Position numbers and translations under genes: made by a program. Shown here piece by piece: positions 54 to 10,100 of a stretch of 47,921 nt of DNA. Below the pieces are notes generated by a model. The model ran no database searches. It saw nothing but the letters and a program-made list of their open reading frames with translations, and was not told where the DNA came from. This DNA is from Microbacteriaceae bacterium (GTDB lineage Bacteria; Actinomycetota; Actinomycetes; Actinomycetales; Microbacteriaceae), in the NCBI GenBank assembly GCA_025463565.1, contig JAODAT010000065.1:1-47921 (forward strand), given 5' to 3'. Within the stretch, counting starts at the first letter, position 1; the number at the start of each line of letters is the position of its first letter.

Positions 54-125
54 GAGCGATTGGCGCAGCGGTAGCGCGCTTCCCTGACACGGAAGAGGTC
101 GCTGGTTCGATCCCAGTATCGCTCA
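54..125 (+). tRNA. tRNA-Val (anticodon GAC)
   Basis: A complete 72-base cloverleaf. The acceptor stem GAGCGAT (54-60) pairs with ATCGCTC (118-124) and the discriminator is A125. The anticodon arm has the loop CTGACAC with anticodon GAC, and the T arm is CTGG-TTCGATC-CCAG. CCA is not encoded. The 3' part (from base 98) is identical to a copy at 8860-8888, so this gene is the attachment site of the mobile element and its 3' end was restored by the incoming element. Confidence 0.95.
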
Positions 126-126
126 C
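98..126 (+). other. attL core: tRNA-Val 3' end
   Basis: These 29 bases (T arm and acceptor 3' strand of tRNA-Val plus one base) recur without mismatch at 8860-8888. Tyrosine-integrase elements commonly use the 3' end of a tRNA as attB and leave such a direct repeat at both borders. The repeat, the adjacent integrase gene and the arm-type motifs on both sides agree on these borders. Confidence 0.93.
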
Positions 127-129
127 ACG

Positions 130-165
130 AAAACCCCCGGAATCCTAGTGATTACCGGGGGTTTT
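130..165 (+). terminator. Terminator just inside attL
   Basis: AAAACCCCCGG (130-140) and CCGGGGGTTTT (155-165) form an 11-bp perfect stem ending in a T run. It stops transcription leaving tRNA-Val and, being symmetric, can also act on the minus strand. It lies outside the attL core, so it belongs to the element, which brings its own terminator for the restored tRNA gene. Confidence 0.85.
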
Positions 166-173
166 GCTTTGCG

Positions 174-195
174 TGGGCAATATCTGGGCAATATC
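174..195 (+). repeat. Tandem 11-bp repeat, probable integrase arm sites (attL side)
   Basis: TGGGCAATATC occurs twice in perfect tandem (174-184 and 185-195), about 50 bases from the attL core. The same motif occurs as CGGGCAATAC and CGGGCAATATC at 8727-8747 and inverted at 8791-8800, next to attR. This is the arrangement of arm-type binding sites for the N-terminal domain of lambda-family integrases. Binding is inferred. The repeat abuts the stop codon of the next gene. Confidence 0.75.
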
Positions 196-196
196 G

Positions 197-814
197 TCAG
201 GACGATTCCATCCCAATATCCACGCCTTGAGCATCGTCGCTTAGGAAAGCGCCTGTGCGCCACTGGCCAGATTTTCTCAGCTCAGCTTCGATCATCTCGG
301 TTTGAGCCTTGATATTCGCGTTTGTCAGCTTCCCAGTCCGCCAATATCGAACGTTCGATGTGAAATCACGGACCCACAATAAAAAGGGTGCTGCAGCATG
401 GAGGTTGTCCTCTGGGGTCGCGTCCGCTGACAGTTGTCCCACCTGATCGTTGGCGGTCATAGCCCTGGCAATCGAACGCTGGCGTTCGGCATCGAACCAC
501 AATGGGAGATCTGGGTAGTCCTTGTCCGTCAGCTCGACAAAAAGTGTCATTCGATGCCGAAGCACCCCCAGCATTTTTGCGTCGCCGGCGGTCGAAAAGT
601 CCAGCGACAGTAAGCGAGACAGTATCTCGAGCAAGTTCTCGTAGCCAGCGGTGACGGCGATCGTTCGCGACGCTCTAGCCTCAGCTCGCCGCTGAAGCAA
701 GAAAAACACAACCCCCACGGCTAGCCCTGTAACGACGCCGCTGATGACGCCCGCTAGCACGTCCGGCCCGAACGTAAGCCACGGAGTCGGAGATGGAGTC
801 AGCACAGCAGTCAT
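197..814 (-). CDS. Single-pass membrane protein of unknown function (element cargo)
   Basis: A 205-residue protein counted from the ATG at 814; a GTG at 823 would add three residues. Residues about 18-40 form one hydrophobic membrane segment (LAGVISGVVTGLAVGVVFFL) followed by Arg-rich residues, so the remaining 160 residues should face the cytoplasm. The soluble part looks mostly helical, and I do not recognise a domain. It is the last gene before attL, in the usual position for accessory cargo. There is no clear Shine-Dalgarno sequence. A 9-bp inverted repeat upstream (846-868) may control it. Gene reality is likely; function is unknown. Confidence 0.7.
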   Translation of the reverse strand: MTAVLTPSPTPWLTFGPDVLAGVISGVVTGLAVGVVFFLLQRRAEARASRTIAVTAGYENLLEILSRLLSLDFSTAGDAKMLGVLRHRMTLFVELTDKDYPDLPLWFDAERQRSIARAMTANDQVGQLSADATPEDNLHAAAPFLLWVRDFTSNVRYWRTGKLTNANIKAQTEMIEAELRKSGQWRTGAFLSDDAQGVDIGMESS

Positions 815-845
815 GGCCCGCACTTTATCTGGTCGCTCGCCGCTC

Positions 846-868
846 GGGTACTCATTGAGTGAGTACCC
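846..868. promoter_or_regulatory. Inverted repeat GGGTACTCA-N5-TGAGTACCC, candidate operator
   Basis: A perfect 9-bp inverted repeat with a 5-base spacer lies 32 bases upstream of the ATG at 814, between two minus-strand cargo genes. Its size and symmetry fit a binding site for a dimeric regulator. There is no T run, which argues against a terminator. The regulator is not identified. Confidence 0.5.
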
Positions 869-922
869 CCGTATTAGTCATCGACGTGACGAAGAGCATT
901 GGGGCAGACCGTACGCCCGCGT

Positions 923-1345
923 CTACCTGAACAAAACAATTTCGTGCACGACCGGACGGACCCAACGGCCCGTTGCTCGGCGTTGTCGCCACCGAATACG
1001 CAACTGCTGCTGTGGCCGGTCGTGGTATTGCCAAACAGAAACAGTGATCCAATTCCCGGGTTCTACGGTGGCTGGGAATAGCGAAGCCTCTGTGCTGATC
1101 GATCCATTTTCTGGATCTTGAGCGGCGGGGTGAGGGTCATCCACCGACATCACTACAGCGGCAAACCGCCGACTCTCATTGACGAGGCGCACCTCGAGCG
1201 TTTGCCGATCATCGCCCCCATGTCTCTCGATGCGCCAAGCGACTCTCGTTTCGCGAGCTTCAACGTAGTTAATTACAGAAAGGACAAATGCGGCTACAGC
1301 TACAACTAGCCCGACGACCGACGGCCATGCGACATAGCTGCTCAT
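923..1345 (-). CDS. Single-pass membrane protein of unknown function (element cargo)
   Basis: A 140-residue protein starting at ATG 1345. Residues about 8-27 (PSVVGLVVAVAAFVLSVINY) form an N-terminal membrane anchor. The rest alternates polar and hydrophobic residues in a pattern suggesting a small beta-sandwich (LEVRLVNESRRFAAVVM, WITVSVWQY). No family is recognised. It lies upstream of the other membrane-protein gene (197-814), on the same strand with about 100 bases between them, and is divergent from the secreted protein gene at 1406, with only 60 bases in between for both promoters. Confidence 0.65.
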   Translation of the reverse strand: MSSYVAWPSVVGLVVAVAAFVLSVINYVEARETRVAWRIERHGGDDRQTLEVRLVNESRRFAAVVMSVDDPHPAAQDPENGSISTEASLFPATVEPGNWITVSVWQYHDRPQQQLRIRWRQRRATGRWVRPVVHEIVLFR

Positions 1346-1405
1346 GCCCGAACTCTAAGTGCACGGGCCCTTTTAATTGGGAACGAAGGAGATTAATCTT
1401 CAACC

Positions 1406-1936
1406 ATGAACATCAGGAGCTTTACCGCACCGGCGATTGCCGTGGGCGCTGTCGCGTTGGTCGCTGCGGCGATCGTCTGGGGCCCAGCCGTTGGTCGAGC
1501 CGCGGGCATTTACTACACCCCGACCCCTGTCGCGACTTCTCAGGCGTTCGGTGCGCCAGCGACCGATGACCCGCCCGTGCAGCAGCCCGATGTGATCGAC
1601 GGGCAGGCTCAGCATGCGGCGGATGTTGCTGCCGCTCAGGCGGCCCAAGCTGCTGCGGACGCGGCGGCTGCACAGGCCGCAGCAGCTGCCTCAACTCATT
1701 GCCCCGATGGGACTTCCGCGCAGTCCTATGACGACGCGGGAAACATCACGTCCTGCTCGAAGCAAACGACTGCCGGCGGTCTTCACTGCCCGTCTGGGAC
1801 TTCGCCGCAGGCTTACGACGATCAAGGGCGTGTAACTGCCTGCTCAATGCCATCGGCTCCCGGTGGCATAACGTGCCCGCCCGGGCAGGCGCCACAGGAA
1901 TACAACGACGACAATCAGGTCGTGCGCTGCGGCTGA
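1406..1936 (+). CDS. Secreted or anchored protein with Ala-rich segment and three 29-residue Cys repeats
   Basis: A 176-residue protein and the only plus-strand gene of the element. Residues 8-30 are a hydrophobic signal peptide or anchor. Residues 36-65 are Pro/Thr-rich, and 71-96 are nearly all Ala/Gln/Asp, likely a helical spacer. The C-terminal part holds three tandem repeats of pattern C-P-x-G-x3-Q-x-Y-x-D-x8-C, with Cys pairs at 99/117, 128/146 and 157/175. Each pair is 18 residues apart and the period is exactly 29. The even number and spacing suggest three disulphides outside the cell. An AAGGAGA motif lies 14 bases before the ATG, which is far. No known family is recognised; cell-envelope display or binding is an inference. 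Confidence 0.75.
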   Translation: MNIRSFTAPAIAVGAVALVAAAIVWGPAVGRAAGIYYTPTPVATSQAFGAPATDDPPVQQPDVIDGQAQHAADVAAAQAAQAAADAAAAQAAAAASTHCPDGTSAQSYDDAGNITSCSKQTTAGGLHCPSGTSPQAYDDQGRVTACSMPSAPGGITCPPGQAPQEYNDDNQVVRCG

Positions 1937-1939
1937 TAT

Positions 1940-2149
1940 TTACGGAGATGTCTCCTGGAAGAGCATGGCGACGCCGGGCCTCACCCAAAATCGATGCATC
2001 CCTATTCCGTCGCCATTCGGGAATTGGAGGTCAAACCAACCTCCGCCACCGTTCGAAAAACTGAGGATCTGATCCGAGAGAGACTGCATGCTCTCCAGCG
2101 TTAGGTTGTCGATCAGGGCCTCGCCAGAATACTGAAACGTCCAGGGCAC
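1940..2149 (-). CDS. Small hypothetical protein
   Basis: A 69-residue protein starting at GTG 2149 with AAGGAGAG about 7 bases upstream, which supports a real gene. It lies directly downstream of the S74 tail-fibre gene on the same strand and ends 3 bases from the stop of the convergent secreted-protein gene. There is no membrane segment or clear motif; the centre is Gly-rich (SNGGGGWFDL). It might be a partner of the tail-fibre protein by position only. Confidence 0.55.
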   Translation of the reverse strand: MPWTFQYSGEALIDNLTLESMQSLSDQILSFSNGGGGWFDLQFPNGDGIGMHRFWVRPGVAMLFQETSP

Positions 2150-2184
2150 TATGCGCTCTCCTTCGATGCGTTGGACACAACGCT

Positions 2185-2206
2185 CTCACAGACCCCCGTC
2201 TGTGAG
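2185..2206 (-). terminator. Hairpin at the end of the S74 gene
   Basis: CTCACAGAC and GTCTGTGAG form a 9-bp perfect stem around a CCCC loop, overlapping the stop codon of the tail-fibre gene (2186-2188). No T run follows on the minus strand, so it may be a weak terminator or an mRNA-end stabiliser. Confidence 0.45.
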
Positions 2207-2836
2207 CCTCTTCTCAATGGCTGCAATGCGCGCATCCTCGTACTTGAGCAGTTCGAGTAGCAGCACGACGATGCGGTCGTAGTTGATTCCTTGCACTTCG
2301 CCGGCGGCGTCGTAGAACACGAACTCAGGAAAGCCGGCCGCGATCAGTTCCTCGGCGATGAAACCCGGCTGTTTCGGTTCAGATTGATCCTGATCGATCA
2401 GCCAGTAGAGCACCGAGCGCAGCTCGAGCAGACGTTCAGGGTGCGCGTCCCAGGTCTCAATACCTGTTTTGAAACGCAGCGCCGAGGGGTTGATCTGAAA
2501 GCGCCCAGCGCCGTCCGCCCAGATGCCGGCCAAGCTCGAGCCGCCTGTGCGAGTTCGTGCGTCAGTCGACACAATGCCAGGGTTTGCTGTCAGCACGCCG
2601 CCGAACGATCCAGTGCCGCCGATGGTCGCCTCGCCGCCGATGGTCGCGTTCCCGGTCGCGTTGATATCCGTCTGGTGGATAAGCCCGTCGACCAACTGCT
2701 GCAGCGTCTTCACGGTCTGGTTCAACTGCGAACCGGTCGGACGCTCCAACTCGGAGATTTGAGTGCTGTGTTTCTTGAGCAACTGAACCAATGCATTGAA
2801 ATCATCGGTAGGAGCCTGCTTATACCCACCGGACAT
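2186..2836 (-). CDS. Tail-fibre/tail-spike-like protein with C-terminal peptidase S74 chaperone domain
   Basis: A 216-residue protein with a near-perfect Shine-Dalgarno (GGAGGTGATC) before the ATG at 2836. Residues 13-58 are a predicted coiled coil, and 59-83 are Gly/Thr-rich with a short repeat (NATIGGEATIGG) like a beta-helical fibre. From about residue 115 onward it matches the intramolecular chaperone (S74) fold: S118 and K123 lie five residues apart as in the self-cleavage Ser/Lys pair of endosialidase tailspikes, then GFIAEEL (158-164) and a terminal coiled coil (183-210). Such proteins trimerise phage fibres and cut themselves off. It is much shorter than a full fibre and has no other virion genes around it. 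The start overlaps the previous stop by one base. Confidence 0.85.
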   Translation of the reverse strand: MSGGYKQAPTDDFNALVQLLKKHSTQISELERPTGSQLNQTVKTLQQLVDGLIHQTDINATGNATIGGEATIGGTGSFGGVLTANPGIVSTDARTRTGGSSLAGIWADGAGRFQINPSALRFKTGIETWDAHPERLLELRSVLYWLIDQDQSEPKQPGFIAEELIAAGFPEFVFYDAAGEVQGINYDRIVVLLLELLKYEDARIAAIEKRLTDGGL

Positions 2837-3087
2837 CAGATCACCTCCGTGTGGTCAGGGCAGTACTTTGATGCACCTGGGCCAACCAGGAAGGGTTCAC
2901 CGCAACCATGCTGCTGACACAGCCGCACGGTTGCATCGCACCCCTTAGGGCCGCAGTAGAGGCTCAACCCCTCAGCTGCCGTGCCAATGTTCTTGCGACG
3001 GCGCGGCCGGCCACACATACGACATGGCGGCGCTGGCGTTCCGTCGTCGTATGCAAACAACTTCGCGAACTCATCAGAACTGATCAT
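2836..3087 (-). CDS. Small Cys-rich, probably zinc-binding protein
   Basis: An 83-residue protein. The ATG at 3087 is preferred because GGAG lies 6 bases upstream; a start at 3129 would add 14 residues without such a site. Cysteines at 22, 25, 45, 50, 57, 62 and 76, with H60 and H79, could form two zinc sites, and an Arg-rich stretch (GRPRRRK) follows the first CxxC. Its stop overlaps the start of the S74 gene (TGATG), so translation is coupled. A structural or nucleic-acid-binding role is possible; no function is assigned. Confidence 0.65.
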   Translation of the reverse strand: MISSDEFAKLFAYDDGTPAPPCRMCGRPRRRKNIGTAAEGLSLYCGPKGCDATVRLCQQHGCGEPFLVGPGASKYCPDHTEVI

Positions 3088-3178
3088 TTTCTGCTCCGAT
3101 CTCGGCTCAATCGACCTTGGGAGAGACATTGCGTTGAGCGGGGTCGTCCGTGGTGTCTGTGTAGAAAAATCGCTTGCA

Positions 3179-3619
3179 TCAGAAGGTAGAGTCCGCGCTG
3201 CGACCGATCTCGGTCCATGCCTTCATCTGCACGCTGTTGGCGATGTCCCTAGGCAGCTTCCTCACGAACTTGACGACCTCGTGGCGGGCTGCCTCGGTGG
3301 CTTCGGTTCCGCCTGGTCGTACTTCGAGGACTGCTTCGAAGGTCTGCCGGTAGATCGCATCAGCTTCGAGCTGTGCTTTGTTGACCGCGGCGTCGTGCTC
3401 ACGTCGCTGCTGCTCTTCCTTTGCATACTGCGCAACACCCTCGTCATACAGGTCCTTCATGCGCCAGGCTGTGGCGAGGTCGACTGACTCGCGCTCGGCC
3501 CAGTCAGGTTCCACCTCTACGTTGTGGTCAGCGAGCCATGCGTTTTTGGACTCCCAGGTGAGGAACGTGGGCATCGCGATGATGTCGGATAGCGGTACGC
3601 GGATTTCTTTGCGGTTCAT
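3179..3619 (-). CDS. Hypothetical element protein, mostly helical
   Basis: A 146-residue soluble protein starting at ATG 3619, with an AAGG motif about 8 bases upstream. The centre (about residues 55-100) is rich in Glu, Gln, Arg and Ala and is likely coiled coil. The C-terminal third is basic and helical. No domain is recognised. It lies between the replication-like module and the tail-fibre gene, with a strong hairpin upstream (3655-3696) that may separate the transcripts. Confidence 0.6.
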   Translation of the reverse strand: MNRKEIRVPLSDIIAMPTFLTWESKNAWLADHNVEVEPDWAERESVDLATAWRMKDLYDEGVAQYAKEEQQRREHDAAVNKAQLEADAIYRQTFEAVLEVRPGGTEATEAARHEVVKFVRKLPRDIANSVQMKAWTEIGRSADSTF

Positions 3620-3654
3620 GTTCTTCGCCTTCTATGTCTGTGTGGTTGAAAGTT

Positions 3655-3696
3655 GCGGCGATCGAGATCCGACCCAACCGTGATCTCGATCGCCGC
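3655..3696 (-). terminator. 15-bp perfect hairpin between element genes
   Basis: The arms 3655-3669 and 3682-3696 (left arm GCGGCGATCGAGATC) pair perfectly around a 12-base loop. It lies between the stop of the gene at 3716-3988 and the start of the gene at 3179-3619. The stem is strong, but no T run follows on the minus strand, so it may be a terminator, an attenuator or an RNA-processing or protein-binding site. Confidence 0.5.
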
Positions 3697-3715
3697 GGCC
3701 CGAACTGGAAAGGGA

Positions 3716-3988
3716 TCAGTTCGGAGATCGGCGGGTCACTGCGGCGATTCGAGCGAGAGCTCGAGTGCCGCTGATGGGTGCGCTTATGGGCCTTCGCATG
3801 TCGTCCAGCGCGATGTTCACCAGGATGGCGGCGCTGCGTTCCTCGCTGGTCTGACCTGGTTCGATGCGCTCCCAGTGCGCCGGCAGATTCCGGTCGACGG
3901 GATGTCCGTGGCGGGCGATGAGGCGTGGTCTGCCAGCCGCGTACTGCATCGAGCGAATCGACAGGTTGTCGTCAGGTGTGTCATTCAT
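3716..3988 (-). CDS. Small hypothetical element protein
   Basis: A 90-residue protein. The ATG at 3988 is chosen because AGGAGG stands at 3996-4001, 7 bases upstream; the longer open frame to 4147 is mostly shadow of the overlapping gene. The start overlaps the end of the zinc-ribbon gene (3981-4274) by 8 bases, so the two are coupled. It is basic, with no membrane segment and no family recognised. It is the last gene of the overlapping module that starts at 5849. Confidence 0.65.
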   Translation of the reverse strand: MNDTPDDNLSIRSMQYAAGRPRLIARHGHPVDRNLPAHWERIEPGQTSEERSAAILVNIALDDMRRPISAPISGTRALARIAAVTRRSPN

Positions 3989-4274
3989 TTGGTACCTCCT
4001 GAGCCGAGTGTGGACTTTTCGGGGAGTTTTCCATTCGGCTGGCGTGTCGCAGAGGCGAGCAGGCCGTGCAGTACTTTCGGGGACGGCCGGTTCGATTCGC
4101 AGGCACGGGATTGCCACACCTTTCGCATCCGGTCCGTGGCCCGCCATTGATCAGCACCGCCGCGACCTGTGACAGAGCTGAGGCGTACTGGGGGTAGGTG
4201 TGCCCGATCTGTTCAGAGACCCACCGCAGGACCTGCACGACCCCGCCTATGGTTCGCCCGTCGAGGGTCGTCAT
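3981..4274 (-). CDS. Small zinc-ribbon protein
   Basis: A 97-residue protein with C50-x2-C53 and C69-x2-C72, the second pair inside GRPRKYCTAC. This treble-clef-like zinc knuckle with a basic GRPRKYC segment is common in small actinophage and actinobacterial proteins. The N-terminal 45 residues are helical. It overlaps the DUF3631 gene by 4 bases at its start (ATGA) and the next gene by 8 bases at its end. It probably contacts DNA or the ATPase; this is inferred from the fold and context. Confidence 0.7.
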   Translation of the reverse strand: MTTLDGRTIGGVVQVLRWVSEQIGHTYPQYASALSQVAAVLINGGPRTGCERCGNPVPANRTGRPRKYCTACSPLRHASRMENSPKSPHSAQEVPNE

Positions 4275-5389
4275 GCGACTATCTCGAGTGTTTGGTTACT
4301 CGAGTTACCGAAGTTACCGACTTCCGTGGAAGGTGCCGGGACGTAGCGTTCCCATGCTTCGTTGAAGTGCTGTCGCGTGTATCCCTTCACAGCGATGCCG
4401 TTCAATTTGAACGTGTTATTGGTGTCTATGCCGTACTTAGAAAGGTTCCTGGCGAGGAATCGACTGTCGATCCGTTCACCTTTGATTGATGCCCAAGGGG
4501 CTGTCTCCATCTCGCAGAGTCGATCTACGAGCTCGTGAGTAGTAATGCGGGTATCAGTGCCCATCGCCGTCTGGATGTCAGTAAGTAGCCGGATACCGAG
4601 AGTTGCCGGTTTTGACTTCGCTTCATTCACCAGGTACACGGCCGCATCTCGAGCTCGACTCGGCCAGGATCCGCCGGCGGCATCCGCAACTGAGATGAGT
4701 GGCTCCCATACATCTGCGTCTCGGTCCTCGATACCCTTCGGGAGCACCGGCCAGGAATCGGTAACCTCGGTAACCGCAGTAACCGCCCAGTTACGGAGGG
4801 CAGCGTTGAGCCGCTCGGCTTCGGGCTGATACACCCGTCGCCGATAAGGCAGGACGATCTCGCTCGGCCGGCGGCGCTGCATTCGAATCACGATGGATCT
4901 CGTCATGATCGTGTCGGGCAACTGATTCAGCCCGGCCATTGCCACGGCGCAGAACGACGGCAGTTCTTCTGTCATCACTTCCTTGCCGCGCACGACAGCT
5001 CGACCGGCGGTAGCGCCTCGCCGATAGCCGCTGTTCAGCAATCCGCGAAGGTCTTCGCTTGAGTCGCTGGGGCGTGCGCCGAAGACGGCGTCGACCTCAT
5101 CGAACAGGAGCGTCGGTAGCCCGGCGACATCGCTGATCTTGCGGAACACATAAGACGGCGTCGAATTGACCGTCACAACAGGCCGCGGAACTAACGGCTC
5201 CGTCACCTCGAGAGCGCGAGATTTTCCCGACCCCGGTTCAGGCGAAAGGAAAGCCAGCCGTGGCGAGTTGTCGAAGCAGTCGATCAGGTGCGCGTGCGCG
5301 ATCCAGAGAACATGCGCGGTTGCTGCGGCCGGCGACGGGTAGGCGACGAACTGCCCGATGAATTGCTCAACTTCATCCAGCGGGCTCAT
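4271..5389 (-). CDS. DUF3631-type P-loop ATPase (phage/island replication-type helicase)
   Basis: A 372-residue ATPase. Walker A is EPGSGKS (51-57), Walker B is LLFDEVD (94-100), and arginines in the IMTRSIVIRMQRRR segment (161-174) suit finger or sensor roles. The order of motifs, a PSEIVLPYRRR segment and the C-terminal 'TTHELVDRLCEMETAPW...' helical domain match the DUF3631 family, which is common in prophages and integrative elements, often with or fused to primases. A primase part is missing, so it may use host primase. It is coupled by 4-bp overlaps both upstream (gene 5386-5628) and downstream (zinc ribbon). Replication or DNA remodelling of the excised element is the likely role. Confidence 0.8.
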   Translation of the reverse strand: MSPLDEVEQFIGQFVAYPSPAAATAHVLWIAHAHLIDCFDNSPRLAFLSPEPGSGKSRALEVTEPLVPRPVVTVNSTPSYVFRKISDVAGLPTLLFDEVDAVFGARPSDSSEDLRGLLNSGYRRGATAGRAVVRGKEVMTEELPSFCAVAMAGLNQLPDTIMTRSIVIRMQRRRPSEIVLPYRRRVYQPEAERLNAALRNWAVTAVTEVTDSWPVLPKGIEDRDADVWEPLISVADAAGGSWPSRARDAAVYLVNEAKSKPATLGIRLLTDIQTAMGTDTRITTHELVDRLCEMETAPWASIKGERIDSRFLARNLSKYGIDTNNTFKLNGIAVKGYTRQHFNEAWERYVPAPSTEVGNFGNSSNQTLEIVA

Positions 5390-5628
5390 GAATTCGCCCG
5401 CTTCACGCCATAGTGATACTCGATGTACTCGAGGTCAAAGCCCTGCGCGGCCAGGTCGTTGCATACCGCCCGCAGGCTCGCTTCCGAAAGTGTCGGGTTG
5501 GCCCGAACATGTTTCCGGCGAAGCGGCGCGAAATGTCCGGGCGTCGGAAACATATACGCAGTAGGGTTATAGAGATCGTTTGCTGGGGAAGCCGCCTTTT
5601 CGCCGGGGCGGCTTTTCTGCGCCACCAC
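5386..5628 (-). CDS. Small hypothetical protein of the replication-like module
   Basis: An 80-residue protein starting at GTG 5628, which overlaps the TAG of the HTH gene by one base; its own stop overlaps the start of the DUF3631 ATPase by 4 bases. Its C-terminal half (TLSEASLRAVCNDLAAQGFDLEYIEYHYGV) looks like a small helical, possibly DNA-binding unit. No family is recognised. Tight coupling suggests it works with the ATPase. Confidence 0.65.
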   Translation of the reverse strand: MVAQKSRPGEKAASPANDLYNPTAYMFPTPGHFAPLRRKHVRANPTLSEASLRAVCNDLAAQGFDLEYIEYHYGVKRANS

Positions 5629-5849
5629 TAGGACGCCTCGGTGTACTGCAGTGGCTGGCCGGCGCGTTCGAGGCTTGCGAGATTGACTCGAATCAGTCGA
5701 GGCCCAAAGCGCCGGGCTTCGATTTCGCCGCGCGTGATCATGCGCCGGACGGTCTTGCTGCTGACGGAGAGTTCTTCAGCGCAACGAGGGATTGGTATCC
5801 AGTCGGCGGTGCCGCCCGAGATAGAGGGTTCAAGAATGAGGCCGGACAT
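5628..5849 (-). CDS. Excisionase/MerR-like HTH DNA-binding protein
   Basis: A 73-residue protein starting at ATG 5849 with GGAG upstream; an alternative start at 5891 has no such site. Residues 18-56 (IPRCAEELSVSSKTVRRMITRGEIEARR...) form the winged helix-turn-helix seen in excisionases and small phage regulators (HTH_17 type), with the wing RFGPRLIRV. It leads the overlapping module that includes the DUF3631 ATPase. It may bind DNA to favour excision, start replication or regulate this operon. A role as directionality factor is inferred. Confidence 0.75.
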   Translation of the reverse strand: MSGLILEPSISGGTADWIPIPRCAEELSVSSKTVRRMITRGEIEARRFGPRLIRVNLASLERAGQPLQYTEAS

Positions 5850-6082
5850 TTGGAGACTCCAACAGGTGAGGACTTGACCTCTGGTAGCCACCTGAGGGAG
5901 TACTCACCGATTGGGCATATGGCCCGTGAACATCAGCCTGCCGAGCGGCCAACCCTGGGCAACGCGGCCCGGTAAATCTTGTGAACCTTGCGGCCCGATG
6001 TTTTCAGTGGAGCGGGTTCCGTGAGCCCGCTCATGGCTTCGATGCGCAAGCGCACCCGGATGCTCTTAGTTTATCGCGAAGA

Positions 6083-6109
6083 CACGCGTGGGCGCTTTTG
6101 TACACGTGT
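6083..6109. promoter_or_regulatory. Two 8-bp palindromes 19 bp apart, candidate operator
   Basis: CACGCGTG (6083-6090) and ACACGTGT (6102-6109) are each perfect palindromes with centres 19 bp apart, and their flanks (CGCGA/TCGCG) add a larger imperfect inverted repeat. This suits a pair of regulator dimers on one DNA face upstream of the HTH-ATPase module. Which protein binds is unknown. Confidence 0.45.
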
Positions 6110-6132
6110 GTCGCGTTAATCTCAGGACAAAG

Positions 6133-6159
6133 GCCTGGGCGCACGGAAGCCGCCCGGGC
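6133..6159 (-). terminator. Hairpin downstream of the internal recombinase gene
   Basis: GCCTGGGCG (6133-6141) and CGCCCGGGC (6151-6159) form a 9-bp stem with one T-G wobble and a 9-base loop, 24 bases past the stop codon of the recombinase. A short pyrimidine stretch (CTTTGTCC) follows on the minus strand. Probably the transcript end. Confidence 0.5.
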
Positions 6160-6183
6160 AATGGGCAACGTTCCCCAACGCGC

Positions 6184-7131
6184 TCAACCATGTGTGGAAT
6201 TTTTCACAGGTGAGACACCTGCCATCCTGGCCGCCTGCCCGGCCCGCTGAATGTCTTCCTTGGCGACGTGAACATATACGGCGGTAGTCGTCGGTGAGGC
6301 GTGGCCGAGGAATTCCTGCGTTGCCCGAATGTCAAAGCCGGTACCGCGGTAGACCGTCGTTGCGGCTCTGTGGCGGAGTGAATGCGGGTTGGTCCCCACC
6401 AGGTCGCGGATGTGCCGCCAGATAGTGGACACGGCCGCGTGACCGCCTGACTTGCCCGGAAAGTAGTAACCCTCGCGCGCTGGTCGTCGTTCCATCGTCT
6501 CGAGAACTTCGCGGAGTTCAGGCGAGACCCAAACGGAGCGAGTGCGTGAGCCTTTGCCCGTGACCGACAGCCAGTCGCCGTCACGGTTGTTTCGTCGCAG
6601 CGTGGCGATTTCCGCCACGCGCAGCCCACACTCGGAGCCGAGCAAGATCATCGCCAACTCGTCGGTCGTCGCGCGGTCTAAGCCTTTCCGAATGGCATCG
6701 TCGCCAGCGACTCTTGCAGGCTGCCTGATCGCACGGATCGAAAACAAATCGCGCGACGGGTCATCGAGGATATGCCGCTTCCTCAACGCCCACCCATAGA
6801 GAGATCGCAGGGTTGCGACGATGGTCACTTGAGTTGCGGACGACCACGCCTCGTTGCTGTAGATGTACTGGTCTAGATCGTCTGTCTGAGCCGTCAGCAG
6901 GGTTTGCTTGGTGCCAGCGAGCCAGAGAGCGTATCGACGTGCCCAGTGCAGACGGAGCTTGACCGTCGCTGGCGACAAACGGCGGGAGGCCAGAAACTCT
7001 CCGTACGTGTCGATCAACTTGAGCGCGCGCGGATCCGCTACGACTTCGGGAATGTCGCCCACGGGCGACAACGGCTCGAGGTATGCGGACTTGCGTGGAA
7101 AGATCTTCCACGTCTCGATAGCGTTCGACAT
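6184..7131 (-). CDS. Tyrosine recombinase, XerC/D-like (internal, second recombinase)
   Basis: A 315-residue recombinase with ATG at 7131 and a GGAGG 6 bases upstream. A SAM-like core-binding domain spans about 35-130 and the catalytic domain 150-300. All catalytic residues are visible: R171 (CGLRVAEI), K193 (GKGSRTR), H250 and R253 (HSLRHRA), H277 (LGHAS) and the nucleophile Y286 (TAVYVHV). It lacks the long N-terminal arm-binding domain of the attR-side integrase, so it resembles Xer-type resolvases. It follows the small gene 7133-7450 with one base between coding regions. It may resolve dimers of the element or be a relic of another element. Confidence 0.88.
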   Translation of the reverse strand: MSNAIETWKIFPRKSAYLEPLSPVGDIPEVVADPRALKLIDTYGEFLASRRLSPATVKLRLHWARRYALWLAGTKQTLLTAQTDDLDQYIYSNEAWSSATQVTIVATLRSLYGWALRKRHILDDPSRDLFSIRAIRQPARVAGDDAIRKGLDRATTDELAMILLGSECGLRVAEIATLRRNNRDGDWLSVTGKGSRTRSVWVSPELREVLETMERRPAREGYYFPGKSGGHAAVSTIWRHIRDLVGTNPHSLRHRAATTVYRGTGFDIRATQEFLGHASPTTTAVYVHVAKEDIQRAGQAARMAGVSPVKNSTHG

Positions 7132-7132
7132 T

Positions 7133-7450
7133 TCATGCCTCCGAAGCTGCGAGAAGGTAGGTCGTCTGCATCGTCTCGGGGTCTTTCATCATCGCCACGA
7201 GGCGATAGATGCCGAGTGCCTCGTAGAAGATGATTTCGGCGTCGAGATCTTGTACCCACGTCTCGCCCACCTGAGCCGAATAAATACGGTGTCGAGCGAG
7301 CTGGTCGTTGAACGGAGTGACCGAGTATGAGGCGTAGTACTGCGGCCCGTCACCGCCGATCGCCGCGAGACGAAAACTCTCTGTCTCCCACGTCATGCAC
7401 GGCATGAACAAGCCGGCCGGGATGGTTAGTAGGTTTGTCGTGTCCATCAT
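7133..7450 (-). CDS. Small hypothetical protein between the two recombinases
   Basis: A 105-residue protein with ATG at 7450 (a second ATG directly follows) and AAAGGAAC upstream. No membrane segment; the sequence is rich in Tyr, Thr and Met and has mixed alpha/beta character (QYYASYSVTPFNDQL, VQDLDAEIIFYEALGIYRLVAMM). No family is recognised. It is coupled to the downstream recombinase (one base between the stop and the next start), so it may be a partner or regulator of it. Confidence 0.6.
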   Translation of the reverse strand: MMDTTNLLTIPAGLFMPCMTWETESFRLAAIGGDGPQYYASYSVTPFNDQLARHRIYSAQVGETWVQDLDAEIIFYEALGIYRLVAMMKDPETMQTTYLLAASEA

Positions 7451-7479
7451 TTGTTCCTTTCAGGGTGATTGTTGGACTA

Positions 7480-7512
7480 GCCCCCGTCGCTGTTTTGGTC
7501 AGCTTCGGGGGC
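7480..7512 (-). terminator. Interrupted hairpin downstream of the integrase
   Basis: GCCCCCG (7480-7486) pairs with CGGGGGC (7506-7512), and inside it GCTG pairs with CAGC around TTTTGGT. It lies between the integrase stop (7549) and the next minus-strand gene (7450). No T run is present, so it may be an attenuator or processing site rather than a full terminator. Confidence 0.4.
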
Positions 7513-7525
7513 GCTTCTTGCTTCA

Positions 7526-7545
7526 GGTGGGGAAATTTCCCCACC
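7526..7545. repeat. 20-bp perfect palindrome beside the integrase stop
   Basis: GGTGGGGAAATTTCCCCACC reads the same on both strands. It ends three bases before the integrase stop codon (7549-7551). As RNA it can form an 8-bp stem with an AATT loop, but no T run follows. A protein-binding site or crossover-related site is as likely as a transcript end. Confidence 0.6.
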
Positions 7546-7548
7546 CGC

Positions 7549-8715
7549 TCAAGTCTTTGCTTGCTCGCTCATCCGCTCGGCTAATTCGGCGTCGCGGCCG
7601 GCGCTGTGCTGGTACCGCATCGCAGCGGCCACGGTCGAGTGACCCAGGCGCTCCTGTAGCTCTTTGAGAGTTGCGCCGGCCAATGCCGCCCGGGTGGCCC
7701 CGTAGTGCCTCAGGGCGTGCCAGGGCATGTCGGTGCGCCCTGCTTTCTCGCGTGCCGGATACCAGTGCTTTGCGAAGCTGCTCTGCGCAAGGTGAGTCAT
7801 TCCGTCTGCAGCGGGGAACAGCAAGACGTTCTCGCCGGCGGCGAGATGGTCTTGGAGGTGTGCAATCACGGTGTCGTGGACGTGTGGAGGGAGCACCACC
7901 GAACGGACGCCCGCTTCACTCTTGGTCTTGCCTACGATGAATCCGCGACCGGGTACATGGGTGACTCCGCGAGTGATCGCGATCGTCACCCGTTTCACCA
8001 CATTGCCCTCCATCGTCACGATGATGTCCTGCCGTCGAAGCTCGGTCATCTCTCCCCAGCGTGCGCCTGCCCATGCCGCTATGACAACAGCGGCCTTGTA
8101 GCGCGCCGGCATTGCGTCGAGGATCTTCTGCAACTCGTCGGGTGTCGGCGGTTCGACCTTCTTGCCGGTCTTGGCGTTCTGAGCGCCGCGAATCATGCAG
8201 GGGTTGGCGACGATCTTGCCGTCCTGCACGGCTGTCTTGAGCACCGAGTTGAGGAAGCCATAGGCGCGCGCGGTCTGCGTCTTGTGCCCTGTGGCTCCCT
8301 GCGCCGCGTACCAGGTACGAATCATCTCGGGAGTGAGCGCCACAAGCCTTTCAGCGGCGAGCGGAGCCACGGGGCCACGTAGCAATCGCTCGTACTCAGC
8401 ACGCGTGCGGGGGAGTAGCGGCTCGCCGTGACGGTTGATGCGGGTATCGAGCCATTCGGTCGCGTACGCCCCGAGGGTGTCGCTGCGAGTGCGCTTAGCT
8501 AAGTCGGTGCGCTGGGCGTCCATGGCTGACCATGTGCCGGTGTGCAGCTTGGCCTGCTGAATGGAAAGCCACCCTCGAGCGTCGGTCTTGTTGTCGTAGG
8601 TGTGAGGGGCGTTGTAGCGCTTGCCGTCGAGGCCTACATACGAGGCTTGATACCGGCCCGACGATCGCTGCCTGATTGCACCGAAGGACTCTCGGGGCTT
8701 CCGTTTCGTCGTCAT
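7549..8715 (-). CDS. int: Phage-type tyrosine integrase
   Basis: A 388-residue integrase when started at ATG 8715 (GGAA 5 bases upstream); ATG 8724 or TTG 8733 are alternatives, but they run into the arm-site repeats. Three parts are visible: an N-terminal arm-binding domain (SFGAIRQRSSGRYQASYVG), a core-binding domain (about 75-165) and the catalytic domain. Catalytic residues, numbered from 8733, are R225 (GARWGE), K271 (TKSEAGVR), H339 and R342 (HALRHYG), H365 (RLGHS) and Y374 (MRYQH). Next to attR, it should recombine the tRNA-Val attB with attP. The upstream repeats may let it repress its own promoter. Confidence 0.93.
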   Translation of the reverse strand: MTTKRKPRESFGAIRQRSSGRYQASYVGLDGKRYNAPHTYDNKTDARGWLSIQQAKLHTGTWSAMDAQRTDLAKRTRSDTLGAYATEWLDTRINRHGEPLLPRTRAEYERLLRGPVAPLAAERLVALTPEMIRTWYAAQGATGHKTQTARAYGFLNSVLKTAVQDGKIVANPCMIRGAQNAKTGKKVEPPTPDELQKILDAMPARYKAAVVIAAWAGARWGEMTELRRQDIIVTMEGNVVKRVTIAITRGVTHVPGRGFIVGKTKSEAGVRSVVLPPHVHDTVIAHLQDHLAAGENVLLFPAADGMTHLAQSSFAKHWYPAREKAGRTDMPWHALRHYGATRAALAGATLKELQERLGHSTVAAAMRYQHSAGRDAELAERMSEQAKT

Positions 8716-8726
8716 CAGTTCCATTC

Positions 8727-8747
8727 CGGGCAATACCGGGCAATATC
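8727..8747 (+). repeat. Direct repeat, probable integrase arm sites (attR side)
   Basis: CGGGCAATAC (8727-8736) and CGGGCAATATC (8737-8747) are adjacent copies of the motif found in tandem at 174-195. They lie just upstream of the integrase start and about 115 bases from the attR core, fitting arm-type integrase sites that also overlap the integrase control region. Confidence 0.75.
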
Positions 8748-8790
8748 TCGTGTCTCGACGTGTCCACTTACGTCTAACAGTGACCTTAAC

Positions 8791-8800
8791 GTATTGCCCG
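8791..8800 (-). repeat. Inverted arm-site motif near attR
   Basis: GTATTGCCCG is the exact reverse complement of CGGGCAATAC at 8727-8736. It is the fifth copy of the motif and lies 60 bases from the attR core. Confidence 0.7.
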
Positions 8801-8859
8801 CAAATCGCCTAGATAACAGGCCAGAATGCCCGAAACTCGGTCAACTACTCAGTTGCGCT

Positions 8860-8888
8860 GTCGCTGGTTCGATCCCAGTATCGCTCAC
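8860..8888 (+). other. attR core: duplicate of the tRNA-Val 3' end
   Basis: 29 bases identical to 98-126. The rest of the tRNA is absent upstream, so this is the displaced end left by integration, not a functional gene. Confidence 0.93.
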
Positions 8889-8892
8889 TACG

Positions 8893-8916
8893 AAAAGGCC
8901 CCTTATGGGGCCTTTT
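8893..8916 (+). terminator. Terminator after attR
   Basis: AAAAGGCCCC and GGGGCCTTTT form a 10-bp perfect stem with a TTAT loop and a T run, five bases past the attR core. It could be the original tRNA-Val terminator, or that of an older element, because another tRNA-tail copy follows at 8996. Confidence 0.8.
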
Positions 8917-8920
8917 CTGC

Positions 8921-8950
8921 GTTCGCGACGCTGGGATCGAGCCGGCGACC
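8921..8950 (-). repeat. Inverted, degenerate copy of the tRNA-Val tail
   Basis: Read on the minus strand, this stretch matches bases 97-126 at 24 of 30 positions; four of the six differences are transitions. It faces the opposite way to attR. No tRNA 5' half accompanies it, so it looks like a decayed att or tRNA fragment. Confidence 0.55.
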
Positions 8951-8995
8951 GACGATCGGCGGCGATTGCGATGCAATCACCCCTAGCCGATCGTC
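8951..8995. repeat. Nested inverted repeat between att-like copies
   Basis: GACGATCGGC (8951-8960) pairs with GCCGATCGTC (8986-8995), and inside it GATTGC (8964-8969) pairs with GCAATC (8973-8978). The structure ends exactly where the next tRNA-tail copy begins. Its function is unknown. Confidence 0.6.
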
Positions 8996-9027
8996 CTGGT
9001 TCGATCCCAATATCGCTCACACGAAAA
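8996..9027 (+). repeat. Third tRNA-Val tail copy (older or secondary att site)
   Basis: 32 bases that match 102-133 with one mismatch, including the ACACGAAAA flank that attL has but attR lacks. Together with attR it brackets about 130 bp, consistent with the remnant of a second element or a tandem att site. Confidence 0.75.
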
Positions 9028-9058
9028 ACGGGCGGACGGGCTTCGCCGTCACGCGCCC
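9021..9058 (-). terminator. Terminator of the SRPBCC-YCII gene
   Basis: On the minus strand an interrupted hairpin (GGGCG 9030-9034 with CGCCC 9054-9058; GACGG 9035-9039 with CCGTC 9046-9050) is followed by five T residues supplied by the att-like copy. It overlaps the stop codon of the gene at 9049-9780. Confidence 0.7.
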
Positions 9059-9780
9059 TCGAACATGACCTGCCAGGGGCGCACGCGCACCTCGAGGTAA
9101 CCCGCAGCGACGCACTTGTCGTCTTTGGTAGCCAGAGCGTGGATGTCGATGGCGCTATCCGACGCACGGACGCGCACGATCGTCATGCCAGCCCCGTCTT
9201 CGTCGGGGAGTGGGCCCGCCGCAACGAGGATTCCCGCGTCATCCAGCCTGGACAAGAACGCCAGGTGCTCGCGGAACTGCTCGGTCGCGAAGATGGACTG
9301 GCCGGAGGGCAGCGAAGGGCCGGGACGGTGCTCGAGAACGAACCACGCGTTCTCGGCATCGTCGGCCGACGAAGCGGCGGCGGCAAACAGGTCGAGCACC
9401 TCGATCCAGCCGTGCCCGTATTCGGCGGCCGCGGTATCCGGGTCGGCTCGACGCTCCCAGCCGCTGTGGGTGAGCGTGACCAGGGTTCCGTCGTCGTGCT
9501 GCACGAAGTCCACGCGCACCACCGTCGCCGTGTCGGGATCACTCCCTGGATGCCAATCCAGCGTGAGGGTATGCGGCGGGTTCCACTCGCTCACCTCAGC
9601 CCAGACAGTCTCATCATCGGCGGTGCGTTCAACCAACAACTGACCCTCGAACGCGACGGTGCCCGCGAAGACGCTGAGATCATGCAGCGGCCACCACTCG
9701 CCGATCTCATCGGTGAACAGCGCGAACGCGCGCTCGAGCGTTGCCTTGACGATCACTTCACGACGGATCGGCGCGGTCAT
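9049..9780 (-). CDS. SRPBCC (AHSA1-like) domain fused to a YCII-related domain
   Basis: A 243-residue protein from ATG 9780; an open extension to 9864 is only read-through of the overlapping regulator gene. Residues 8-135 form a SRPBCC/START-type ligand-binding domain (VKATLERAFALFTDEIGEWWP near the start, VTLTHSGWERR near the end). Residues 146-240 resemble the YCII fold (FREHLAFLSRLDDAGILVAAGPLPD...). The two domains are usually separate proteins. The ArsR-type gene upstream overlaps by 4 bases, the common ArsR-SRPBCC pair in actinobacteria. The ligand is unknown, probably a small hydrophobic molecule. Confidence 0.88.
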   Translation of the reverse strand: MTAPIRREVIVKATLERAFALFTDEIGEWWPLHDLSVFAGTVAFEGQLLVERTADDETVWAEVSEWNPPHTLTLDWHPGSDPDTATVVRVDFVQHDDGTLVTLTHSGWERRADPDTAAAEYGHGWIEVLDLFAAAASSADDAENAWFVLEHRPGPSLPSGQSIFATEQFREHLAFLSRLDDAGILVAAGPLPDEDGAGMTIVRVRASDSAIDIHALATKDDKCVAAGYLEVRVRPWQVMFEGA

Positions 9781-10100
9781 AGGGATGTCCTCTCGGAGTC
9801 GTTGACAGAATCGACGTGGGCGGCGAACGACCCGAGCACCGAGTCCCAGACCGAAACGAGCCATTGCTGGATCTCGCGCTGGCCATCAGGAGCAAGCACG
9901 TAGAGATTGCGGGTGCCGCGGCTGCTGTGAGTGACGAGGCCGGCGTCGCTGAGCACCCTGAGGTGTTTGCTGACAGCGGGTCGGCCGATCGGAAGAACGG
10001 CGGCGAGTTCGCCGACGGGTGCCGGGCCATCAGCCAGTTTTTCGAGGATGCGGCGACGCATCGGGTCACCGATCGCGTCAAGTGCCAGTTGGTTACTCAT
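9777..10100 (-). CDS. ArsR-family winged-helix repressor
   Basis: A 107-residue regulator with the typical order: PMRRRILEKLADGPAPVGELAAVLPIGRPAVSKHLRVLSDAGLV (helix-turn-helix about 28-50) and a wing (SRGTRNLYVL). The metal motif of classical ArsR/SmtB (ELCVCDL) is absent, so it belongs to the subgroup linked to SRPBCC proteins and may sense another signal. The stop overlaps the SRPBCC-YCII start (ATGA). Palindromes at 10091-10114 overlap its own start codon, suggesting self-repression. Confidence 0.9.
   Translation of the reverse strand: MSNQLALDAIGDPMRRRILEKLADGPAPVGELAAVLPIGRPAVSKHLRVLSDAGLVTHSSRGTRNLYVLAPDGQREIQQWLVSVWDSVLGSFAAHVDSVNDSERTSL

Follow-up and report, generated by a model that had tools for sequence, protein, structure and literature searches.

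The window analysed here is a stretch of 47,921 nucleotides from a Microbacteriaceae bacterium (contig JAODAT010000065.1), and its left end holds an integrated element of 8.8 kb (positions 98-8888) at a tRNA-Val(GAC) gene. The element carries two tyrosine recombinases, an excisionase, a replication ATPase of the DUF3631 type (RepAM), a tail-fibre tip protein with an S74 domain, and membrane or secreted proteins near the tRNA (Table 1). An initial annotation had listed these components, counted three membrane or secreted cargo proteins, and noted exact 29-bp borders and the lack of capsid, packaging, and conjugation genes. The inventory is borne out: the borders agree at 100%, both recombinases and the DUF3631 ATPase are confirmed by their Pfam families, and the excisionase and tail-fibre assignments are supported, the latter by a PHROG tail family with the Pfam S74 score just under its cutoff. 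The Pfam scan covered all 15 open reading frames (ORFs) taken as genes, and the PHROG and PADLOC scans covered 10 of the 15 each; membrane and signal-like segments of the cargo proteins, and the cysteines of the 97-aa protein at 2836-3129, were read from the sequence. The annotation had placed the element as a phage satellite or a mobilizable island of a type it did not recognise. That placement was broadly sound, and related elements inserted in this tRNA-Val speak for a satellite.

Table 1. Features of the tRNA-Val element and its borders in the window.
Feature	Position	Strand	Basis
tRNA-Val(GAC), integration target	54-126	+	ARAGORN
attL core, 29 bp, 3' end of the tRNA	98-126	+	Exact copy at 8860-8888
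Two putative arm-type sites, GGGCAATATC	175-195 (175-184, 186-195)	+	Motif count
208-aa protein, one membrane segment, cargo	197-823	-	ORF; no Pfam, NCBIfam, or PADLOC match
140-aa protein, N-terminal membrane segment, cargo	923-1345	-	Sub-cutoff Pfam only (EACC1, E 0.014)
176-aa secreted or anchored protein, cargo, opposite strand	1406-1936	+	Signal-like N-terminus; weak repeat-family matches
69-aa ORF, weak gene call	1940-2149	-	No Pfam or PADLOC match
Tail-fibre tip protein, 216 aa, C-terminal S74 chaperone domain	2186-2836	-	PHROG tail family, 2e-12; Peptidase_S74 20.8 bits (cutoff 22)
97-aa cysteine-rich zinc-ribbon-like protein	2836-3129	-	No Pfam or NCBIfam family above cutoff
146-aa protein	3179-3619	-	PHROG head and packaging, E 0.012 only
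90-aa ORF, inner start chosen within ORF 3716-4147	3716-3988	-	No Pfam match
97-aa zinc-finger-like, DksA-like protein	3981-4274	-	PHROG 54, E 0.0018, weak
RepAM-type (DUF3631) replication ATPase, 372 aa	4271-5389	-	PF12307, 180.8 bits
80-aa protein between excisionase and RepAM	5386-5628	-	No Pfam match; PHROG E 0.0067 to unknown family
Excisionase (HTH_17)	5628-5891	-	Pfam HTH_17 27.9 bits (cutoff 27); NCBIfam TIGR01764 29.6 bits (cutoff 28.8); PHROG
Xer-type second tyrosine recombinase, 315 aa	6184-7131	-	PF00589, 66.8 bits (cutoff 27.1)
105-aa protein preceding the Xer gene	7133-7450	-	ORF; no Pfam, PHROG, or NCBIfam match
Site-specific tyrosine integrase, 388 aa from ATG ending at 8715	7549-8733	-	PF00589, 57 bits (cutoff 27.1); PHROG 1, 5e-57
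Two putative arm-type sites	8728-8747 (8728-8737, 8738-8747)	+	Motif count
attR core, 29 bp	8860-8888	+	100% over tRNA positions 45-73
Third att copy, one mismatch over 25 bases	8996-9020	+

The integrase gene starts next to the attR side, and its product is up to 65% identical to integrases found at the same tRNA-Val (loci and genomes are denoted by L and G numbers where they must be told apart). Among 50,697 phage records, 286 match the integrase, all at less than 60% identity and the best-ranked at 42.7%. The second recombinase is XerC-like, yet it falls far under the NCBIfam cutoffs for XerC and XerD. It matches 458 phage records, with 34% identity among the matches listed, and a pattern scan of IMG/VR gave no confirmed relative. 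The pairing of integrase and Xer-like protein recurs in L047, L159, and L160, and relatives of the excisionase lie near the integrase in many loci of the family.

Both ends of the element carry short repeats that were absent from the initial annotation. The decamer GGGCAATAYC occurs five times in the 47.9 kb against 0.06 expected, and four of the five matches lie at the element ends (175, 186, 8728, and 8738); an inverted relative, TATTGCCC, is found at 8792-8799. By their placement, the decamers are putative arm-type sites to which the integrase would bind. A looser motif, G[GT][GT]CAATA, is present within both 420-base ends and nowhere between them in 5 of 14 loci (the window, L047, L048, L051, and L142), at a single end in L153, and at neither end in the remaining eight.

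The tRNA-Val(GAC) gene has a 100% identical copy in 10 of the 12 other genomes of the genus, and in relatives it is the final gene of a Gly-Cys-Val tRNA cluster. The threonyl-tRNA synthetase gene (thrS) begins about 0.1, 1.1, 0.7, and 0.7 kb past this tRNA in G001, G004, G006, and G007, respectively. An element of 4.95 kb lies between the two genes in G003, and the 8.8-kb element lies between them in the window. Since thrS stands near the tRNA in four genomes and the element intervenes here, tRNA-Val is a real and occupied integration site. The 25-base att core pattern has three matches in the 3.1-Mb assembly and its reversed control none, and the GC content is 60.1% between the two exact att copies versus 66.2% to their right. 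The third att copy is likewise missing from the initial annotation. Between the second and third copies lie 132 bases (8889-9020) with a terminator-like hairpin, as found after the tRNA in relatives; they may be a remnant of some other element inserted here.

Several neighbouring observations concern this hotspot. Pfam assigns two genes between the element and thrS (9049-10100) to the AHSA1 family and to the ArsR-type regulators; the stretches searched in eight relatives contained neither, so they may be a separate insertion. In G005, of the same genus, an integrase fragment (L044:3093-3620) is 80% identical to that of the window over 117 aa and stands beside an att core. The locus is at a contig end and represents a close sister element whose other genes were not assembled. 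Insertions between tRNA-Val and thrS that lack a window-type integrase occur in G002 (L103:2447-18956) and G010 (L102:13761-19055, with an excisionase-like ORF) and appear to be decayed or different elements.

At 1e-70 the integrase has a match in 11 of 299 genomes of the family, and a profile of the integrase family at 1e-80 matches 42 of 396 genomes of the order, the window's own genome being included in both counts. A locus was considered bounded when the tRNA 3' end was accompanied by a copy with at most three mismatches in 24 bases. By this definition 21 of 32 loci, the window among them, are bounded by tRNA-end repeats and span 5.0-16.5 kb, a range biased low because anything longer than about 17 kb would have been missed in the 20-kb windows used. 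Twelve of the bounded loci are at tRNA-Val(GAC) and nine at other tRNAs (L053, L145, L151-L154, L156, L159, and L160). Eleven loci were not counted as bounded; ten showed no tRNA-end repeat in the 11-20 kb examined and may be prophages or other elements. The eleventh, L155, was left out of the bounded set although a one-mismatch copy lies 8.8 kb from its tRNA-Thr; its genes include a primase and a capsid.

Virion-type genes are present in nine of the 21 bounded loci: a capsid in L045 and L144; a tape measure in L047 and L145; terminase, portal, protease, and capsid in L153; a small-terminase-like gene below the Pfam cutoff in L048; a gene in L052 whose terminase-like label comes solely from resemblance to the L073 terminase, Pfam giving no match; and virion-type genes in L065 and the window itself. 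Family members pair a single replication gene (RepAM, AAA_25, primase, or RepA) with a small number of virion genes, and some carry defence-type cargo (Abi_2 in L047 and L051, MmeI in L052). When 51 integrases were placed on a tree, that of the window grouped in a clade of 14 rows with 100/100 support, nine of them at tRNA-Val(GAC). The rows closest to it by path are L045, which carries a capsid gene, and L047 and L046, which carry tape measures, and the members of the clade differ in their virion genes. This tree, whose bootstrap had not settled, does not establish a single origin of tRNA-Val(GAC) use: the label needs eight changes, at least five of which are forced by supported branches.

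Viral contigs extend the same association. A profile scan of IMG/VR with the integrase gave 54 loci, of which 39 were screened together with one faecal record (MT835972.1, L163). The integrase is accompanied by TerL, portal, and capsid genes in 15 of these 40 virus records, three of which (L182, L183, and L187) are near-copies. Thirteen of the 15 are on contigs of 8.9-11.9 kb, and the other two are on contigs of 26 and 44 kb. L170 has capsid, portal, protease, and terminase, as in L153, and L184 and L212 have tape-measure genes without a labelled head gene.

Two side observations come from these sets. The small elements L047:4112-14306, L145:6484-17026, L184, and L212 have a tape measure and no head gene by the labels used, and are candidate actinobacterial satellites that would set tail length or make chimeric tails. 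L163, a record of 14.4 kb that comes from human faecal samples and is entered as a bacteriophage, has an integrase of 43% identity with excisionase-like and Abi_2-like genes, and may be a related satellite.

The replication gene ties the element to two kinds of mobile DNA. Passages of PMC3218068 describe the DUF3631 protein as RepAM, a replication initiator of actinobacterial integrative conjugative elements (AICEs). A structure model from 12 aligned sequences has a mean predicted local distance difference test score (pLDDT) of 83.3, and its residues 1-259 superpose on the ATPase domains of MCM helicases (Z 15.1, 3.5 A, 216 residues). Foldseek ranks ORC, RuvB, and MCM first and also gives the helicases D5, NrS-1, and PriRep1, with low TM-scores throughout. 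This modelled likeness fits a replication ATPase, and likeness is no proof of function. RepAM is rare in the family, with 2 of 298 genomes matching at 1e-40 (the window's own included), and has a single match among the 50,697 phage records, at 32% identity.

The window-type integrase is paired with RepAM in seven other loci (L065, L070, L073, L081, L152, L166, and L181). Five of the seven contain virion genes, a count in which L070 lay outside the virion-label screen and L152 showed no virion gene. L065, in another actinobacterial lineage and at the same tRNA-Val, has a capsid and a terminase-small-like gene; L073 has a terminase, and L166 a terminase and a portal. In L081 a tape measure lies 4 kb downstream and was taken as part of the same module, and L181 has a small terminase, with the large terminase in a second tandem module. 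In L055, L056, L057, and L076, RepAM is instead accompanied by a different integrase and by transfer genes of the FtsK or TraB type, so it is common to conjugative and phage-like elements. Where RepAM accompanies a window-type integrase, the context is mostly phage-like.

Some of these loci have features of their own. The RepAM-bearing relative L152:10974-12757, at a tRNA-Asn, carries two cation-efflux-like cargo genes. Two tandem integrase modules, each with an excisionase and RepAM, lie about 9.6 kb apart in L181:332-19934, and tandem integrase modules also occur on the single viral contig UViG 2684622521_000001 (L081, L173, and L174); both look like satellites stacked at one site. L108-L110, which hold relatives of RepAM or Xer at other sites, were considered and set aside, as they do not have the layout of the window.

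The presence of RepAM raises the question of whether the element is a shrunken AICE or an integrative mobilizable element, in which the RepAM-excisionase-integrase block descends from a conjugative actinobacterial ancestor that lost TraB and Spd, and which now moves only if a conjugative helper is present, or never. RepAM is, along with RepSA and Prim-pol, among the replication proteins that define AICEs in passages of PMC3218068, and the window has it; the same passages mention Frankia elements without tra or rep genes. Circular Streptomyces records hold RepAM with an integrase, a helix-turn-helix (HTH) protein, prim-pol, TraB/FtsK, and spd-type genes, L057 and L076 have RepAM beside FtsK-type genes, and L051, located at this tRNA too, weakly matches a relaxase (23.6 bits versus a cutoff of 24.6). 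The window itself yields no Pfam relaxase among its 15 ORFs (oriT, the origin of transfer, was not searched) and no FtsK/SpoIIIE-type Tra protein by Pfam or by comparison with the TraB proteins of L055 and L056. Its integrase is far from AICE integrases, with about 23% identity to L056 and no match to L055, and TraB or Spd is never the best label in the 21 bounded loci when the L055 and L056 references are used. In addition, RepAM with a window-type integrase keeps company with virion genes in the majority of loci just described, and a conjugative element offers no obvious place for a tail-fibre gene. A conjugative ancestry of this kind is thus unlikely, while deserving more weight than the other alternatives.

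The tail-fibre tip protein is the only virion-type gene of the element. Its nearest relatives on viral contigs, L083 and L084, are 40% and 33% identical by tblastn and 47% and 44% by alignment. Ser118 and Lys123 are invariant in the three aligned sequences and are presumably the S74 dyad. The L083 and L084 relatives stand at the end of a tail module, downstream of tape-measure genes (TMP_3, 54.4 bits; PhageMin_Tail, 170.4 bits) with three to four ORFs between, and a gene common to both contigs directly precedes them. Microbacterium phage Isperia has a relative in gene 26, which is annotated as a minor tail protein and lies downstream of the tape measure and of three other minor tail genes. Relatives occur in 204 of the 50,697 phage records, all below 60% identity, and the C-terminal part also matches two PHROG families of minor head proteins (8.6e-8 and 1.3e-7). 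The occurrence of relatives in phage tail operons is what a captured tail gene would predict. A structure model of the protein (mean pLDDT 48.8) was poor and was not used.

A tail gene with phage relatives could also be left from a larger prophage that shrank by deletion and kept its att sites, its integrase, and one tail gene. The broad integrase family does occur in full phages (the 286 records above) and on IMG/VR contigs of 30-44 kb, and the S74 relatives are phage tail genes. Against such a relic, the main ORFs of the element are intact, the 20 other tRNA-bounded loci span 5.0-16.5 kb within the limit set by the 20-kb windows, and RepAM is nearly absent from phage records. The recurring plan of one replication gene and few virion genes per family member is also unlike the outcome of random deletion, and we regard a prophage relic as improbable. 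The initial annotation had held that the same genes inside complete prophages would speak for a deletion relic; as a unit the element was not found there, given the single RepAM match and the best-ranked integrase identity, and the S74 gene does have relatives within phage tail operons.

The remaining genes of the element are mostly small and without clear families. The membrane and secreted proteins encoded near the tRNA are cargo, and PADLOC gave no match for the 10 window proteins scanned. The 146-aa protein was considered as a packaging protein and rejected for want of a convincing homologue: no relative was found in phages, plasmids, or IMG/VR, and the 298 family genomes gave one weak match besides itself. 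Neither the Pfam nor the PHROG scans matched major capsid, terminase, portal, relaxase, or FtsK/TraB families. The position of cargo at the tRNA end would suit a genomic island that is no longer mobile and is retained for these membrane or secreted proteins; no helper is visible in the genome, and the third att copy suggests that the site received earlier insertions. Such an immobile island is very improbable, as the frames of the integrase, Xer protein, excisionase, and RepAM look intact, along with the arm-type sites.

Taken together, the element is probably an integrated phage satellite of an actinobacterial lineage resembling the capsid-forming phage-inducible chromosomal islands (cf-PICIs), with a tail-fibre tip as its only virion gene. 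This reading is favoured by the 14-row integrase clade whose nearest rows carry capsid or tape measure, by the small size of the 21 bounded loci and the virion-type genes in nine of them, and by the viral records that pair the integrase with TerL, portal, and capsid, mostly on contigs of 8.9-11.9 kb. It is further favoured by the virion genes in integrase-RepAM loci, the arm-type decamers at the element ends, the resemblance of the RepAM model to replication helicases, and the relationship of the S74 protein along its length to tail-module genes of L083, L084, and Isperia. In the proposed life cycle, infection by or induction of a helper phage would trigger excision by Int and Xis. RepAM would then drive replication of the excised circle, and the Xer-type enzyme may resolve multimers or assist integration. 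The terminase and head of the helper would package the element DNA, and the S74 protein would be built into the helper tail tip to give a chimeric tail, which may change adsorption. This last step has a precedent, since Vibrio PLE11, as described in parts of PMC12987554, makes virions whose tails contain a tape measure and a baseplate hub of its own.

Several points weigh against the satellite reading. The element has no capsid, terminase, or known packaging gene, so its membership among satellites rests on its relatives. Of these, 12 of the 21 bounded loci showed no virion gene within a limited label set. Conjugative AICEs likewise use RepAM as their replication protein, and the S74 gene could be a moron without a role in transfer. 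The 15 unscreened IMG/VR loci (26-36% identical) are on contigs of 30-44 kb and are probably full prophages, and several screened loci are on contigs of 32-110 kb; the integrase family as a whole is therefore not restricted to satellites. No helper is visible, with no match to PF05065 (capsid) or PF10145 (tape measure) in the window's own genome, which is 88.4% complete. Finally, the full gene set of the window was found nowhere else, and the DNA at 900-6200 gave a single 50-base match in the 12 other genomes of the genus (an alanine-rich stretch in G011).

A bolder proposal, which we hold as possible but doubtful, is that this integrase lineage consists of modular satellites whose virion slot is swapped, even between close relatives, among capsid, capsid with terminase, full head, tape measure, and fibre tip. 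The window element would then be the extreme case, making neither capsid nor packaging protein and supplying only the adhesion part, so that helper particles with the element inside would have a chimeric tail tip and an altered host range. Incorporation of the S74 protein into particles would mean that satellites themselves carry a determinant of host range, and satellite-driven spread across hosts would become testable in a family of many small, comparable members.

Known systems share portions of this design, and the type is therefore not wholly unrecognised, as the initial annotation had supposed: RepAM is known, the integrase relatives include cf-PICI-like elements of about 10 kb, and tail genes on Vibrio PICI-like elements (PLEs) are documented by experiment. 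A literature search of partial coverage found no published description of the tRNA-Val family, and experimental work on actinobacterial satellites lags behind, according to portions of PMC10023795. Among the closest systems are the cf-PICIs (passages of PMC10690885), which encode capsid, portal, protease, and terminase, and the contigs of about 10 kb found here, with the order int-xis-rep-TerL-portal-protease-capsid. These contigs share with the window the integrase family, the size of 9-12 kb, in many cases an excisionase-like neighbour, and in several a replication gene. The window element differs in having a tail-fibre tip as its sole virion-type gene, with none of the terminase, portal, protease, and capsid found in the Pfam or PHROG scans.

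Parts of PMC10654092 describe candidate Mycobacterium PICIs, defined by integrase plus capsid, and phiRv1/phiRv2, which are likewise small and actinobacterial, with few virion genes, helicase-type replication genes, and, in some, tyrosine integrases at tRNA genes. The window element gave no major capsid match and has a host from another actinobacterial group; being capsid-less, it would be missed by searches built on integrase plus major capsid. Vibrio PLEs also encode a helper-type tail part, and chimeric tails have been proposed for them; compared by description, their part is a tape measure and that of the window a fibre tip. The same sections of PMC12987554 report putative tape-measure genes in cf-PICIs. 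MiniFlayer and MulchRoom are actinobacterial satellites as well, and MiniFlayer, from Streptomyces, has a tail-fibre gene; as far as passages of PMC10690885 describe them, both differ in encoding capsid and packaging genes, and MiniFlayer is apparently non-integrating. The RepAM/Prim-pol AICEs (passages of PMC3218068; NZ_CP108827.1 and NZ_CP108973.1) also have an HTH protein and a DUF3631 gene next to an integrase, whereas the window lacks prim-pol, TraB, Spd, and the GntR gene and has a distant integrase. The element also links RepAM, known from conjugative elements, to elements that would depend on phages.

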